The notes below the pieces were generated by a model that saw only the letters and a list, made by a program, of their open reading frames with translations, searched no databases and had not been told where the DNA came from. A DNA stretch of 5,002 nucleotides, taken from contig JBFLYA010000272.1 in the NCBI GenBank assembly GCA_040757115.1, positions 1-5,002 of the forward strand. The letters run 5' to 3'. The DNA is from a bacterium. GTDB lineage: Bacteria; UBA9089; CG2-30-40-21; SBAY01. This document shows positions 1-5,002 of this stretch, in pieces. Within the stretch, counting starts at the first letter, position 1, and each line of letters opens with the position of its first letter. The position numbers and the translations under genes were made by a program.

Positions 1-10
1 CCACAATCAA

Positions 11-50
11 TTTCTACCTATTTCTATAAATTTCAATCTATTTCTATTAT
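11..50. repeat. Four decameric TTTCtAtctA repeats
   Basis: Four consecutive 10-bp units start at 11, 21, 31 and 41, each beginning TTTC: TTTCTACCTA, TTTCTATAAA, TTTCAATCTA and TTTCTATTAT. They give a pyrimidine-biased tract phased at about one helical turn. After it comes CTTATCTCC, present at 51-59 and again at 68-76. The repeats may continue outside the window. Confidence 0.6.
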
Positions 51-88
51 CTTATCTCCATATCACTCTTATCTCCTTATCCCCTTTC

Positions 89-120
89 TTACACTTTTGA
101 TATATAGCCTGAACGGTTAC
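89..120 (-). repeat. Direct repeat copy B (GTAACCGTTCAGG type)
   Basis: This is the second copy of the 32-33 bp sequence, 196 bp away and in the same orientation. It begins on the minus strand with exactly the GTAACCGTTCAGG found at the left end of the element at 4263. Like copy A it is followed on the minus strand by a purine-rich stretch (AGAAAGGGGATAAGGAG), which suggests a tandem larger unit. Confidence 0.8.
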
Positions 121-126
121 AAAAAT

Positions 127-282
127 AAGGAGAAAGGGAGAAAATGGAGAAGTGGAGAAAAGAGTGAATAAAGAAATAGGGTTACTGGTAAATTTCGCAG
201 ACTCCAGGATTGATGTCCGAAGGGTGGAGCAAGAAAAAGTTTGAGCCATTTCTCCAATTCTCCCTTTTCCCCATTTCTCCTT
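127..282. repeat. Long purine/pyrimidine inverted repeat
   Basis: The arms 127-160 (almost all purine) and 249-282 (almost all pyrimidine) are 34 nt each and complementary at 30 positions, around an 88-nt unique centre. The arms consist of GGAGAAA-like words. The whole lies between direct-repeat copies A and B. RNA from the ATPase operon reading through this region could form a long hairpin that might end or stabilise the transcript; no classical terminator (compact hairpin plus U-run) is seen after the ATPase stop. An open frame through here (249-52, minus) is only repeat sequence and is not called as a gene. Confidence 0.75.
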
Positions 283-284
283 GT

Positions 285-317
285 TTACACTTCTAATGTA
301 TAGCCCTGAACGATTAC
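285..317 (-). repeat. Direct repeat copy A (GTAATCGTTCAGGG type)
   Basis: Read on the minus strand, this 33-bp sequence begins GTAATCGTTCAGGG and ends AAGTGTAA. It matches the copy at 89-120 except for four substitutions and one indel, in the same orientation. It starts 7 bp after the ATPase stop codon, so it lies in the 3' untranslated region of the hemC-ATPase transcript. Confidence 0.8.
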
Positions 318-324
318 CTTTTCT

Positions 325-3288
325 CTATCCCAGATTATGCTCAACTATTCTACCATTATCCATCTTTATATAATAATTAAACATAGATGAGGCAAGTAAT
401 TGGGAATGGCTAATGACAAATATCTGGTCAAATGTTTGCATTATCTCTCCCTGAGTCAGAAGGTAAATTAGTGCCTGAGCACGCTCTACATCAAACGAAC
501 TTAATGGTTCATCTAAAAATATAAATGACGGGGCAATTCCTTTTTCTTGCGGTAAAGTAGCAATGGCAAAAGCCATCCGTAAGGCTAATGAGAATTGGTC
601 TTTTGTTCCACCACTAAAAATATTCTTTGCACACCAACGCATTGCCCGTTCGTCCCAAACCTTAATTTTATAATCCTCCGTAATATCTGCATCGTGATAC
701 CTATCACAGGTAAGTAAAGGTAGTATCTTTTGCATATTTCGGATAGTATTGGGCAATACCCTGGCGACTATATTGTTTCTTGCCGTAGTCAAGATTTGTT
801 CAGCTAAAGTCCGTATTTTAAGACTATTGCTTAAATCCTGTATCTCTTTTTCACATTGAGTAACTTCTAACCTGACATTTTCAAGATGTAATTCTCTGGC
901 TAACTTTTCTACATGGGTTCTAATGTAACCGATTTTAGCCTCTATATCCTCTTTTTCTTTAATCAGCGTTGGCTCATACTGAACTTGCAGACGGCTATAT
1001 TTAAACGCCTTTTTAATCTGGTTTGGGAAATTTTGCATTTCGTTTTCTAATTCAGTTTGAGTTTTTTGCCTTAAGTTAATTTCCCCGCGATAAGCATCTA
1101 TCTGACTTTGAAGGGTCTTAAATTCTTGAAGTGTTTTTTCTTCTTGAATTTCATTAATCTCTGCTATAACCTTGTTTTTTAGACGAGGATAGTCTCTTAA
1201 ACTTAAATCTCTTGAAATCTGTAGAGTTGATGTATAAATTGTGTTTATTTCATCTTTAAGTTTTGTCACAATCTCCTGGTGTTGGCTAATTTTTTCCAAA
1301 AACTGCTCTTTTTTACTCACATCTTGTAAATCCCTTTTTACCTCAGTTAATAATTGATTATATTCTGCCAATAATTTCTCACGGTCTAAAATTACTCCTA
1401 AATTCTTTGCTTTTTGGTGTAATTTAGGTTTGAATTTATCAATTATTTTACTCAGTTTATCCTTGCGGATGATAGATTTTTCTTTATCCTTTAATTTTTC
1501 TTCTTCATTGAGTTTATTCAGTTCTTGTTTGTAATTTTCAAGCACATTTTTTGATAACGAAACAGCACTTTCCTGTCCAGCAATATCTTTAGTTATTTTA
1601 GAATAATCTTCTTTTACTTGTTGAATATCAAACCCTTTCAGATTTTCTGATAAATCATTGATTAAGGCATCCGCCTGAGTAATATCTTCTGGTATGGATA
1701 AGTTTAATTTAAGCAATTTATTTTCATATTCAATCAATTTTGTCTCATCCTGTTCGTTTTTATCTCTGGTGCTTTGCCTTTGTCCATCTAATCGCAAAAT
1801 CTCATCTTCTAACTCTCGTATCGTCAGGGATAGTCGATAAATAATCTTCTTCTGATTTTTAATATTGATAAATCCTGAAAATAAAGCCGCCAGGGTAATT
1901 ACCACCATAATTATTCCCATTGCCAATAATCCATTTATCAAACTAATAATTAATGAAATGATACTGACTATATTTATGCCGATAGAGGTAAAGAGTGTTT
2001 TTTTATAGCGGTGGTCTGCATTAGTTTTTTCTTGTTGTTTTATATCCTTTTGGGAATTTATTTCCTTTTCCTTCTGGTTAATTATTTCAAGGGCATAAAG
2101 GGTATATTTGGCTCGACGCCAATTTTCTAATGCCTCTTTTTCATTTATTGATTTTAGTTGTTGGGCAAGGGTCTTTTCTTTTTCCAGACTTAAATTCAAC
2201 TTTTCCTGTTTTTGTATAAATTTTGTTTCCTCAAGGTTAATTGTCCCCTTTAATTTTTTAATCTGCTCTAATTCCTTATCAAGGGAAATACCTTTTTCCT
2301 TCTCAAATTTATGCAGGTCCTCTAATTTATTAATTCGGGCAAGCCTTTTACTTAAACAAAGAATTTCATTCGTCAATTTTTTTCTAACCGGGACTTTTTC
2401 GTTTAATGCCTCTAAATCCTGAACTTGCTTTTTAAGATTATTGATTTCAGCCTCTTGTTCTTTAATCTGAGTTAAATTAGAGATAAGTTTTTCAAGATGG
2501 TTTTGTGTTTTTTTTAGTTCCCCTACCCTATTTATTTTCTTTTCTAACTCTATTTTTTGAGGCTCAATAAGTTTAATAGATTTGAATAACCTTTTTATAT
2601 TGGTGGTCTCTTCATTAATTTTTTGTTTAAGTCTAATCAGGTTAATGATTTGGAGTTTAATATCTATTCTTTTCTTTGCCTCCAGAGTTTTATGTAGTTC
2701 AATCTGTTTTAATTTTGCCAGTTCTAATTTTTGGAGTTTATATTGGAGGTCTTTTTCTTCATCGCGTCGGACCTTAAATCTTTGCTCTAATTCTAATAGT
2801 CGGTCAAGATTGAGTAATTTCATTAATGACTTTTCGCGTTGTGATTTATCAAGTCCTTCTAATTTATCCAGTTTTTTTTGCTCGACAAAACAGCTGTTTA
2901 GCAAAGCATCTCCATCTAAACCTAATTCTAACATCAATCGTTCATTCACGGGTATATTTTTAGTGATCACCTCATCACCAATGTTTAGTTTCCACTGATT
3001 AGGGGAATTTAGATTAAGGATTCTATCAATGGTTAATATTCTATCTCGGATTTCTACCTGCAGTTGGATATATGCGGATTTAGAATGGTAATTAATTAAT
3101 TCCACAAGGCTTCTTCGCTCGCTAACCAATGCTTCACCAAATAAACCAAAATAAATCGCCTCAAATAAAGTGCTTTTACCCGATTCATTCAATCCTTCAA
3201 TAAGAAAGCTACCTCGTTGCGGAAAGGTAATCTCAATATCTTTTAATTGTTTAAAATTATCTGCAATTAATTTTTTAATTTTTATCAT
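325..3288 (-). CDS. SMC/Rad50/SbcC-like ATPase with central membrane hairpin
   Basis: This is a 987-residue ATPase of the SMC/Rad50/SbcC superfamily, a group that binds, tethers or processes DNA using an ATP-dimerised head. Seen in the sequence: an N-terminal Walker A GLNESGKST (residues 32-40), a Q-loop near Gln137 (FVEQKK), heptad-rich charged coiled coils at about 140-430 and 477-840, the ABC signature FSGGTKDQFSLALRMA (891-906), Walker B FIFLDEP (922-928, Asp926/Glu927), D-loop LSSFD (929-933) and H-loop His961 in VISHS. The arms meet not at a CxxC zinc hook (there is none; cysteines are only at 133, 311, 812, 861 and 886) but at two hydrophobic stretches, about 433-452 and 455-474, that look like a transmembrane hairpin. 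From memory this resembles the Bacillus YhaN group, whose partner is an Mre11-like nuclease; none is seen here. The ATG overlaps the hemC stop as ATGA and has no Shine-Dalgarno at normal spacing, so translational coupling is likely. Superfamily assignment is firm; the exact role is unknown. Confidence 0.93.
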   Translation of the reverse strand: MIKIKKLIADNFKQLKDIEITFPQRGSFLIEGLNESGKSTLFEAIYFGLFGEALVSERRSLVELINYHSKSAYIQLQVEIRDRILTIDRILNLNSPNQWKLNIGDEVITKNIPVNERLMLELGLDGDALLNSCFVEQKKLDKLEGLDKSQREKSLMKLLNLDRLLELEQRFKVRRDEEKDLQYKLQKLELAKLKQIELHKTLEAKKRIDIKLQIINLIRLKQKINEETTNIKRLFKSIKLIEPQKIELEKKINRVGELKKTQNHLEKLISNLTQIKEQEAEINNLKKQVQDLEALNEKVPVRKKLTNEILCLSKRLARINKLEDLHKFEKEKGISLDKELEQIKKLKGTINLEETKFIQKQEKLNLSLEKEKTLAQQLKSINEKEALENWRRAKYTLYALEIINQKEKEINSQKDIKQQEKTNADHRYKKTLFTSIGINIVSIISLIISLINGLLAMGIIMVVITLAALFSGFINIKNQKKIIYRLSLTIRELEDEILRLDGQRQSTRDKNEQDETKLIEYENKLLKLNLSIPEDITQADALINDLSENLKGFDIQQVKEDYSKITKDIAGQESAVSLSKNVLENYKQELNKLNEEEKLKDKEKSIIRKDKLSKIIDKFKPKLHQKAKNLGVILDREKLLAEYNQLLTEVKRDLQDVSKKEQFLEKISQHQEIVTKLKDEINTIYTSTLQISRDLSLRDYPRLKNKVIAEINEIQEEKTLQEFKTLQSQIDAYRGEINLRQKTQTELENEMQNFPNQIKKAFKYSRLQVQYEPTLIKEKEDIEAKIGYIRTHVEKLARELHLENVRLEVTQCEKEIQDLSNSLKIRTLAEQILTTARNNIVARVLPNTIRNMQKILPLLTCDRYHDADITEDYKIKVWDERAMRWCAKNIFSGGTKDQFSLALRMAFAIATLPQEKGIAPSFIFLDEPLSSFDVERAQALIYLLTQGEIMQTFDQIFVISHSQLLASSMFNYYIKMDNGRIVEHNLG

Positions 3289-4154
3289 AATTTTGCCAGT
3301 TTTTTTCCTAATTTAACTGCGTCTTCTTTTTTTCCTTCAATTTGGGCACGGTTAATCTTTTGGTTATCCGGGGAAACAATTACGCTCTTAAGTTTTAAAA
3401 TATCACCTTCTATACACCCTAATATTCCTATTGGGATTTGGCAGCCACCACCTAATTCTTTAAGGAAAGCCCTTTCAGCTATTACCGCCAGGGAGCTCTC
3501 TTCATCATTTAAATTACTTACTATTTCTTTTATTTCTGTGTCATTTTTGCGTATCTCTATGCCTAAGGAACCCTGTCCAGCCGCAGGTAAAATAATATCG
3601 GTGGATAAAAATTGGGTGATTTTGGAATGAAGGTTTGTCCGAATACAGCCGGCGGCGGCGACAACTATTGCATCTACAGAGTTTAATTTTTTTATTCTTG
3701 TATCTAAATTACCTCGTAAATCGACAATCTCTAAATCCTGACGATAATAAATAAGTTGTGCCTTTCTTCTTGGACTACTTGTGCCAATTACTGTTCCGGC
3801 TGGAAGCTCTTCTAATCGTTTATTATCATTAGAGATTAAAACATCTCTTGGGTCAAGCCGTTTAGTAATTGCCCCAATCATTAAGCTTGAAGGCAAATCA
3901 ACAGGCACATCTTTCATCGAATGCACTGCCAGGTCAATTGCTCCTCTTAATAAAGCCTCTTCTAATTCCTTAATAAATAATCCCTTCCCCCCAACTTTAG
4001 ACAATGGCACATCCGTTATTTTATCGCCTTTTGTCTTGATAATTTTAATACCTGTTTGGATTTGTGGGCATAATTTTTTAAGTTGTGTTACTATTTCCTT
4101 TGTCTGGGCTAATGCTAATGAACTACCTCTGGTGCCAATAATTATTTTTTTCAT
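3285..4154 (-). CDS. hemC: Hydroxymethylbilane synthase (porphobilinogen deaminase)
   Basis: HemC (EC 2.5.1.61) polymerises four porphobilinogen molecules into the linear tetrapyrrole hydroxymethylbilane in the cytosol, an early step towards haem, sirohaem and cobalamin. The 289-residue product starts MKKIIIGTRGSSLALAQ, the canonical family opening. Visible landmarks by family comparison are Arg9, VGGKGLF (Lys53, Lys57), the catalytic aspartate Asp82 in HSMKDVPV, substrate-binding Arg129/Arg130 in GTSSPRR, Arg147 in DLRGN, Arg153 and Arg172, and Cys238 in GGGCQIPIG, which should carry the dipyrromethane cofactor. I chose the ATG at 4154. An in-frame TTG at 4247 would add 31 residues encoded partly by a palindromic repeat and unlike the family. 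No clear Shine-Dalgarno precedes 4154. The protein ends KLGKKLAKL, about 10-13 residues earlier than usual (commonly 300-315 aa), with its TGA inside the start of the following ATPase gene. No other tetrapyrrole gene is in the window. Confidence 0.96.
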   Translation of the reverse strand: MKKIIIGTRGSSLALAQTKEIVTQLKKLCPQIQTGIKIIKTKGDKITDVPLSKVGGKGLFIKELEEALLRGAIDLAVHSMKDVPVDLPSSLMIGAITKRLDPRDVLISNDNKRLEELPAGTVIGTSSPRRKAQLIYYRQDLEIVDLRGNLDTRIKKLNSVDAIVVAAAGCIRTNLHSKITQFLSTDIILPAAGQGSLGIEIRKNDTEIKEIVSNLNDEESSLAVIAERAFLKELGGGCQIPIGILGCIEGDILKLKSVIVSPDNQKINRAQIEGKKEDAVKLGKKLAKL

Positions 4155-4200
4155 CTTATTTAGTTGTAGTTGAACAAGGAAACAAAAGAAAATAAAGTGC

Positions 4201-4246
4201 TGGAGGGATGGAGTAATAGATTTAAAATCACCACTCCACCCCTCCA
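4201..4246. repeat. G-rich palindrome upstream of hemC, possible terminator
   Basis: The arms TGGAGGGATGGAGT (4201-4214) and ACTCCACCCCTCCA (4233-4246) pair at 13 of 14 positions around an 18-nt loop. On the minus strand the hairpin follows the membrane-protein gene and is succeeded, after a few bases, by a T-rich tract (CTTTATTTTCTTTTG). It could therefore terminate that transcript, though the U-run is interrupted and not adjacent. It also resembles a stand-alone palindromic intergenic repeat. The rest of the 4155-4262 stretch holds no gene. Confidence 0.55.
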
Positions 4247-4254
4247 ATGCTCCC

Positions 4255-4262
4255 TATTCTTC
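4255..4262. repeat. Left target-site duplication, TATTCTTC
   Basis: This 8-bp sequence directly abuts the left end of the MITE-like element and is identical to 4497-4504 at the right end. Because the neighbouring bases also match, the direct repeat can be read as up to 10 bp (CTATTCTTCG, 4254-4263 and 4496-4505), so the exact cut position is ambiguous by a base at each side. Confidence 0.75.
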
Positions 4263-4496
4263 GTAACCGTTCAGGTAATCCTTTACCGCAGAGACGCAGA
4301 GAAACAGAGAGGAAAATATTTTTTTTCGCGTTTTTCGGTGTTTAAAAAGGCTCAAAAACAGTTAGTCAAAAGTGTATTAAAAGATTAATAAACAACGAAA
4401 GACCCGAAATGCACAAAAAAAAGAAAATTTCTATCTCTGGTGAATAGATTTTAATTTTTTTCTCTGCGTCTCTGTGTCTCTGCGGTGAACGGTTAC
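4263..4496. mobile_element. MITE-like element with terminal inverted repeats
   Basis: A 234-bp non-coding element is bounded by perfect 11-bp inverted ends, GTAACCGTTCA (4263-4273) and TGAACGGTTAC (4486-4496). Just inside is a second inverted repeat, 4285-4310 against 4461-4486, matching at 23 of 26 positions and built on ACCGCAGAGA. The left arm has about 11 extra bases (around 4274-4284) between the two. The centre (4311-4460) is AT-rich with no credible gene. The 8-bp direct repeat TATTCTTC abuts both ends, as expected of a target-site duplication. No transposase is encoded, so if mobile it would need one supplied elsewhere. As RNA on either strand it could fold into a long stem. The inverted repeats and flanking duplication are seen directly; mobility is inferred. 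Confidence 0.8.
4341..4369 (-). promoter_or_regulatory. Possible sigma70-type promoter inside the element, facing hemC
   Basis: On the minus strand TTGACT (4369-4364) and TTTAAA (4346-4341) are separated by 17 nt. They match the sigma70 consensus at 5/6 and 4/6 positions and would start a transcript about 180 nt before hemC. The region is very AT-rich, so chance matches are likely. No better promoter is visible between the element and hemC. Confidence 0.25.
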
Positions 4497-4930
4497 TATT
4501 CTTCGTTCTTTTTTGTTTCTAAACTTTTACCCCAGATAGCGCCAATCACTAAACAACCAACAACCATTGTTATCAGTGTATAAATCAAACACGGTAAAGG
4601 AAATCGCATGTTAGTCACACAGAAGTCGGTTAGCATACCTGGTAATGCAGTTGCTATCCAGAGTAATAGCCCAAAGATAACACCTTTGGAAATTGGTTTT
4701 TGGGTTGGAATCCCTTTGTAAAATACAGGGTAAATAGCCGCAAGTAACAACCCTTGAACCAGATTCATCACTGATAATCCAATGGTAAAAAGTGGAGAAT
4801 CCATTGGTCTAAAAAGTTGTGAACAGCAATCATACCAATGGGCAAATATGCCACCATAGATTATCCCGCCTACGATTTGAGAAATAATCCCAAAGGCTAA
4901 TCCGGCTACAAACCAGCGAACTACTTTCAT
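4496..4930 (-). CDS. Small four-helix membrane protein, function unknown
   Basis: I do not recognise this 144-residue protein. It is strongly hydrophobic, with four likely membrane helices at about residues 5-30, 47-70, 82-102 and 112-134. A short basic N-terminus (MKVVRW) comes before the first helix and a charged tail (GKSLETKKNEE) follows the last. A cysteine pair (Cys35-Cys36) with nearby Trp32/Tyr33 lies between helices 1 and 2; further cysteines are at 104, 114 and 126. The helix-boundary motifs YGGIFAHWY and YPVFYKG recall uncharacterised small membrane-protein families such as DUF1761, but this is only a weak impression. A textbook ribosome-binding site supports the ATG at 4930. The stop codon lies exactly at the edge of an inserted repeat element: the TAG uses the element's terminal base, and the duplicated target also reads Glu-Glu-TAG, so the protein is probably unchanged by the insertion. 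It is probably expressed as its own unit. Confidence 0.82.
   Translation of the reverse strand: MKVVRWFVAGLAFGIISQIVGGIIYGGIFAHWYDCCSQLFRPMDSPLFTIGLSVMNLVQGLLLAAIYPVFYKGIPTQKPISKGVIFGLLLWIATALPGMLTDFCVTNMRFPLPCLIYTLITMVVGCLVIGAIWGKSLETKKNEE
4497..4504. repeat. Right target-site duplication, TATTCTTC
   Basis: This is the matching copy at the right end of the element. It overlaps the last codons (Glu-Glu) and stop codon of the membrane-protein gene on the minus strand, which places the original insertion site at that gene's 3' end. Confidence 0.75.
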
Positions 4931-4936
4931 CCTTTC

Positions 4937-4947
4937 TCACCTCCTTA
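4937..4947 (-). promoter_or_regulatory. Strong Shine-Dalgarno of the membrane-protein gene
   Basis: Read on the minus strand this is TAAGGAGGTGA, a full complement of the bacterial 16S rRNA 3' end. Its AGGAGG core lies 9 nt before the ATG at 4930. It fixes that start codon and contrasts with hemC and the ATPase gene, neither of which has a comparable site. Confidence 0.9.
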
Positions 4948-4956
4948 AGAAAAAAG

Positions 4957-5002
4957 GTAACTATTCAGCCACAGATGGACACGGATGAAACACTAAAAAT
5001 TC
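4957..5002. repeat. Start of another intergenic repeat, running off the window
   Basis: A terminus GTAACTATTCAG (4957-4968), close to the GTAACCGTTCAG end of the other elements, is followed at once by a different body, CACAGATGGACACGGATGAA. From general knowledge that body motif recurs between genes in many uncultured bacterial genomes. The far end lies outside the window. It stops 9 bp short of the Shine-Dalgarno (4937-4947) of the membrane-protein gene, so that gene's promoter, if not further upstream, would lie in the repeat. Confidence 0.55.

Follow-up and report, generated by a model that had tools for sequence, protein, structure and literature searches.

Non-autonomous elements with IS66-type ends and many different interiors in a bacterial genome and its relatives

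We examined a short motif that recurs in a 5,002-nucleotide stretch of bacterial DNA (hereafter the window) and conclude, with a probability of roughly 0.9, that it is the terminal inverted repeat for IS66-family DDE transposases of the single-ORF type, which would move many non-autonomous elements in trans. The elements are IS66-type non-autonomous elements with many bodies, a variant of a known transposon type. Hundreds of short elements in the genome appear to carry IS66-type ends around a variety of interiors. They would be moved in trans by a transposase that makes staggered target cuts with a spacing of 8 bp and attaches the element ends there, so that the target is duplicated over 8 bp. 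Between arms that are quasi-tandem, inverted and matched, many interiors would hold either a GxxExxY (PD-(D/E)XK-like) gene or a four-helix-bundle gene of the 23S rRNA IVS type, and others would have been reduced by internal deletion to little more than the arms. The genome's own transposase supplier has probably decayed, been collapsed in the assembly, or gone, and the two end classes described below would correspond to two related transposase specificities.

A preliminary description of the window listed five copies of the 12-letter motif, and all lie exactly where it placed them: GTAACCGTTCAG at 109–120 (minus strand), GTAATCGTTCAG at 306–317 (minus), GTAACCGTTCAG at 4263–4274 (plus), GTAACCGTTCAC at 4485–4496 (minus) and GTAACTATTCAG at 4957–4968 (plus), the last belonging to a second end class, GTAACTATTCA. 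Within the window alone the excess is modest, with six matches at up to three mismatches against 2.1 expected, a count reached by 8 of 200 shuffles. The genome-wide count that the same description proposed shows the motif to be overabundant: GTAACCGTTCAG has 417 exact copies (196 + 221) in 4.317 Mb, while the reversed pattern, our control, has one. Within the phylum the motif is plentiful in some genomes: the congener G001 has 431 copies and G008, from another family of the same phylum, has 375; members of the phylum otherwise have no more than 375, and the motif is at chance level, 0–2 copies per genome, in 42 genomes outside the phylum. The repeated shared ends are confirmed as real. Many contigs of the window's genome (G000; for example C4, C6, C8 and C10) terminate approximately 50–200 bases from a GTAACCGTTCAG end. 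The elements are therefore a probable cause of the breaks in the assembly and may keep intact IS66 copies out of view. G008 also has 20 GxxExxY matches, mostly truncated to about positions 2–46 of the profile, which suggests a separate expansion of internally deleted elements.

The anatomy of the elements was read in approximately 1.52 Mb of G000 (462 contigs in total) and approximately 0.8 Mb of the congener. Left and right ends that face inward and lie no more than 3 kb apart were all paired, and the flanks were then compared for a duplication. Exact 8-bp target duplications were found, with 58 end pairs matching at 8 of 8 positions and five at 7 of 8, in a sharp spike at 8 bp; flank comparisons longer than 8 bp for the same end pairs gave no comparable spike. 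The duplications are A/T-rich. The termini are conserved at positions 1–12 only, GTAA[C/G][C/T][G/A]TTCA[G/C], and the letters are mixed from position 13. It is hardly credible that the motif serves in processing, regulation or recombination (as a REP/RAYT-like, CRISPR-like or site-specific recombination site) and is not a DNA-transposon end. Strong folding (39 of 40 elements with z below -3) and short, intergenic, high-copy occurrence recall REP-type repeats, but the exact 8-bp duplications at many sites, the symmetrical inverted ends and precise empty sites all speak against such a site. To our knowledge, IS200/REP-type Y1 transposition makes no target duplication. REP/RAYT was ruled out as a candidate, given the target duplications and a linked transposase that is a DDE enzyme of the IS66 family and not Y1 (HUH).

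The left end of the window holds one element nested in another. The inner one is a partial copy of an approximately 236-bp GGCTATATATC element (1–120, minus strand; end GTAACCGTTCAGG at 108–120), cut by the contig end. Near-identical complete copies elsewhere terminate in GTAAGCGTTCAGGTGGTGTAAC, and 13 copies have different perfect 8-bp duplications. The outer one is a decayed GxxExxY-derived element (121–317, minus strand; end GTAATCGTTCAGG at 305–317), broken by the nested copy after TTATTTTT (121–128). It shares 97% identity over 197 bp with a complete 216-bp element of the congener (L294:14302–14517) and includes the 3' remnant of a GxxExxY gene, reading NKEIGLLVNFADSRIDVRRVEQEKV to the stop (167–244, plus strand), which is the same as the C-terminal end of the intact L047 and L066 genes. 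This outer element is a deletion derivative.

Toward the right end lies a complete 234-bp non-autonomous element (4263–4496, plus strand) with ends GTAACCGTTCAGG and GTAACCGTTCACC and arms of CCGCAGAGACGCAGAG and its complement, these inverted arms being 43 nt long (4275–4317 and 4454–4496). It is flanked by an 8-bp duplication, TATTCTTC, at 4255–4262 on the left and 4497–4504 on the right (plus strand), and the motif sites at 4263 and 4496 are the two ends of this one element rather than two elements. The same element is found at the same place in G001. The start of a second-class element, GTAACTATTCAGCCACAGATGGACACGGATG (4957–5002, plus strand), is cut by the contig end; complete copies of this type, 198–282 bp in length, occur with perfect duplications, for example at L049:229–426 and L073:4646–4923. 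The genes of the window, all on the minus strand, are ordinary ones and encode a Rad50/SbcC-like ATPase (325–3288, below curated cut-offs), hydroxymethylbilane synthase (hemC, 3285–4154) and a DUF1761-like protein (4496–4930, with a weak DUF1761 match). The DUF1761-like gene has the 234-bp element inserted within its stop codon (4496–4498, minus strand); because the element starts with G, the split TA/G still reads TAG and the gene keeps its full length.

Comparison with G001, which is 98–99% identical at the window locus, provides evidence of movement. At 4183–4190 (plus strand) the window contains an empty target site, CAAAAGAA, where G001 has a 140-bp GTAAC-ended element and the 8-mer is duplicated. 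In a joined-flank search, 11 of 66 elements from G000 and 6 of 41 from G001 had an uninterrupted match in the other genome; some of these 17 are paralogous repeats (identity below approximately 95%), and only clear empty sites at 97–99% identity were relied on. The clearest are L084:7797 (98%), L219:1005 (99%), L314:18736 (98%) and the window site at 4183–4190 (98%). The element at L219:1005 is 546 bp long, carries a four-helix-bundle gene and has the duplication ACTTTTCT. These empty sites in the congener confirm that the elements move. We also observed 157-bp elements with GTAATC...CAGTT ends in a palindromic stretch, CTGAGCTCAGCCG, where the 8-bp repeat is CTCAGCCG (L208:991–1147, L210:964–1120 and L307:19111–19267); these may be a separate site-specific family.

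The ends fall into two classes, GTAA[C/G]CGTTCA and GTAACTATTCA (CTA-type). Among 97 elements with perfect duplications in the two congeners, 21 have CTA-type ends on both sides, 74 have other types (mostly CCG/GCG) on both sides, and 2 are mixed, compared with a mean of 34 and a minimum of 20 mixed pairs under random pairing (10,000 shuffles). A single end class is ruled out, since the CCG/GCG-type and CTA-type hardly mix. Because the classes almost never pair in one element, at least two related transposase specificities are likely, both apparently IS66-like. The preliminary description supposed one terminus served by one enzyme; a transposase gene flanked by the shared ends, which it proposed to look for, was found, but with two end classes the single enzyme gives way to what are probably two or more.

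Matches to the IS66 transposase family (PF03050) occur at five places in G000. One of these, in contig C277, is a full-length transposase gene with in-frame TAA and TAG stops, located between GTAACCGTTCAGG ends 1.56 kb apart, and a comparison of its flanks found no matching 8 bp. The 462 contigs of this genome yielded no intact transposase with these ends, only the C277 copy and contig-end fragments; with the assembly in so many pieces, an intact IS66 copy may be collapsed. The closest intact relative of the C277 enzyme is in genome G004 (468 aa, 40% identical, PF03050 4.5e-39), where it fills a 1505-bp element with perfect GTAACCGTTCA ends and no target duplication at the flanks. A transposase gene between the same ends is therefore present in decayed form in G000 and intact in G004.

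A scan of the genome collection for relatives of this transposase returned 54 loci. Ends matching GTAACCGTTCA at 11 of 11 positions surround relatives in Omnitrophota, Deltaproteobacteria, Planctomycetota (two), Krumholzibacteriia and Treponema (two), and the Omnitrophota copy, of 1494 bp, has a perfect 8-bp duplication, AATTCTTT. IS66 elements are known to duplicate 8 bp, as in two Paracoccus examples (PMC3281130); identical 11-bp ends around IS66 genes link ends and enzyme by sequence, beyond the length of the duplication. For the CTA-type ends, the proposed link to an IS66 enzyme rests on an IS66 fragment between such ends in G014 (L124; PF03050 1.3e-24) and a CTA-like end near an IS66 fragment at a contig end in G000 (L115). 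Counting against the IS66 explanation, the transposon copies mostly have GTAACCGTTCAC and the elements mostly GTAACCGTTCAG. The elements might instead be moved by an unseen DDE transposase of another kind that duplicates 8 bp, with the IS66 copies as passengers or coincidence. Consistent with this, G000 shows one decayed full-length IS66 copy with these ends, and G008, despite its many motif copies, has only a small fragment related to the transposase. We nevertheless consider it improbable, since at least seven lineages have this transposase subfamily between the 11-bp ends, one copy showing a perfect 8-bp duplication, and collapse of multi-copy insertion sequences at contig ends would hide intact copies in fragmented assemblies.

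The interiors of the IS66-ended elements are diverse. Under strict clustering (60% mutual coverage), the 96 non-nested elements that have perfect duplications fell into 25 body clusters carrying the shared ends. Some clusters are variants or nested remnants of others, so that the truly independent bodies are fewer than 25. Looser clustering put 67 elements together because of nesting and similar arms, an artefact that the strict clustering removes; a single-body MITE is ruled out by the approximately 25 clusters. Together with the exact 8-bp duplications, the empty sites and the transposase gene between the same ends, these clusters strongly support the proposal of a modular non-autonomous family with exchangeable interiors. 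The bodies had also been called unrelated, which needs qualifying, since many of them are GxxExxY or four-helix-bundle cassettes or deletion remnants of these. L047:14892–15402 (511 bp) and L066:4650–5145 (496 bp) each carry a GxxExxY gene (TIGR04256 6e-37; PF13366 PDDEXK_3), and L101:15465–15948 (484 bp) carries a four-helix-bundle gene (TIGR02436 5e-32; PF05635, 23S rRNA IVS protein). In G000, 8 of 20 near-full GxxExxY genes lie between paired ends, three of them with perfect duplications, as do 2 of 18 four-helix-bundle genes; for comparison, 1.7% of random positions have both ends.

An alternative is that most bodies do not derive from cassettes, the IS66 ends capturing any DNA and the GxxExxY and four-helix-bundle genes being occasional passengers. 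Two thirds of the elements have no detectable gene remnant, as this would predict. However, 31 of 97 elements contain such genes or remnants and five shuffled sets contain none, remnant-bearing and remnant-free elements share body clusters, and the window element at 121–317 is itself a deletion derivative. We therefore regard indiscriminate capture as rather unlikely. The exchangeable interiors are at least partly cassettes and deletion products, the origin of most elements being judged from shared arms. A literature search, with most subscription journals outside its scope, found no paper on GxxExxY mobility.

The arm-gene-arm arrangement extends beyond IS66 ends. Almost all GxxExxY and four-helix-bundle genes were seen to be bordered by matched inverted arms built of short quasi-tandem repeats, each cassette having a repeat unit of its own (L320–L343, L173–L202). 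The units agree within a locus and vary from one locus to the next, examples being ACCACAGAGGCACGGAG, CCGCAGATTACGCAGATT and CCGCCGATGAACG. For GxxExxY loci outside the phylum, the arm-match score is at least 15 in 16 of 19, compared with a control maximum of 14 (58 positions), and in four-helix-bundle cassettes the own partner arm is matched at 18 or more in 19 of 21, compared with 1.4% of cross-cassette pairs. Other terminal repeats with 8-bp duplications surround GxxExxY genes at 2 of 35 loci and at 1 of 58 control positions; outside the phylum, then, arms are present but such transposon-like ends are not evident.

Seven loci could be compared between two congeners. Three appear swapped (L075:16283–17158 and L186:1416–2486; L212:1228–1711 and L180:1463–1924; L216 and L345, compared on one side), with a different four-helix gene and different arms beside flanks that are 90–98% identical. 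Two show presence versus absence or a remnant (L054/L293 and L191/L063), and two have the same cassette in both congeners (L048/L348 and L200/L307). At the swapped loci it looks as if whole arm-gene-arm units had been exchanged, and this swapping is independent of GTAAC ends. We tentatively suggest, at somewhat less than even odds, that GxxExxY and four-helix-bundle (IVS-type) genes in many bacteria constitute a class of swappable cassettes with private matched, inverted, quasi-tandem arms, that whole units come, go and replace one another at fixed loci through their own mechanism, and that IS66-type ends are one vehicle that has been loaded with these cassettes in this phylum. Of our results, the pattern of cargo and arms surprises more than the transposon itself. 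Interiors that are gene cassettes or their remnants, together with arm-gene-arm cassettes that lack IS66 ends, occur in other phyla too and are swapped between congeners, look to be new.

Several known systems resemble the elements in part. Like single-ORF IS66 elements (PF03050), they have GTAA-starting inverted ends, 8-bp duplications and the same Pfam transposases between identical 11-bp ends; however, those in the window are without transposase and differ from each other except in the last approximately 12 bp. Like MITEs, they are short, non-autonomous and high-copy, with inverted ends, duplications and probable internal deletion derivatives: members of 118–300 bp occur, single bodies have 13 and 18 copies at different sites, and empty sites are found in a relative. 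In contrast to MITEs, a single end serves approximately 25 body clusters, and what the larger members contain is not transposase remnants but GxxExxY or four-helix-bundle genes. REP/RAYT repeats are GTAG-tagged and palindromic (PMC3733652), and the present elements are likewise hairpin-forming, high-copy intergenic repeats with a short GTA-type tag, but they have target duplications, symmetrical inverted ends and a DDE transposase in place of Y1. In 23S rRNA IVSs, a PF05635 ORF lies in the loop between complementary terminal arms (PMC4990558). The four-helix members alone share this plan, with a four-helix-bundle ORF (TIGR02436/PF05635, as in L101) between complementary arms. However, the cassettes read in detail lie outside rRNA, near other genes and in one case beside tRNA-like sequence, and IS66 ends with target duplications are present in some of them.

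A single kind of mobilisation system would account for hundreds of dispersed intergenic repeats in the phylum. Target duplications and empty sites place the GxxExxY and four-helix-bundle/IVS families, which are little studied, multi-copy and widespread in bacteria, in a concrete mobile context. How 23S rRNA IVSs arose has been described as unclear, transposition being no more than a hypothesis (PMC4990558). With IVS-type ORFs travelling as cargo of movable elements bounded by arms, the question of IVS origin would become testable.
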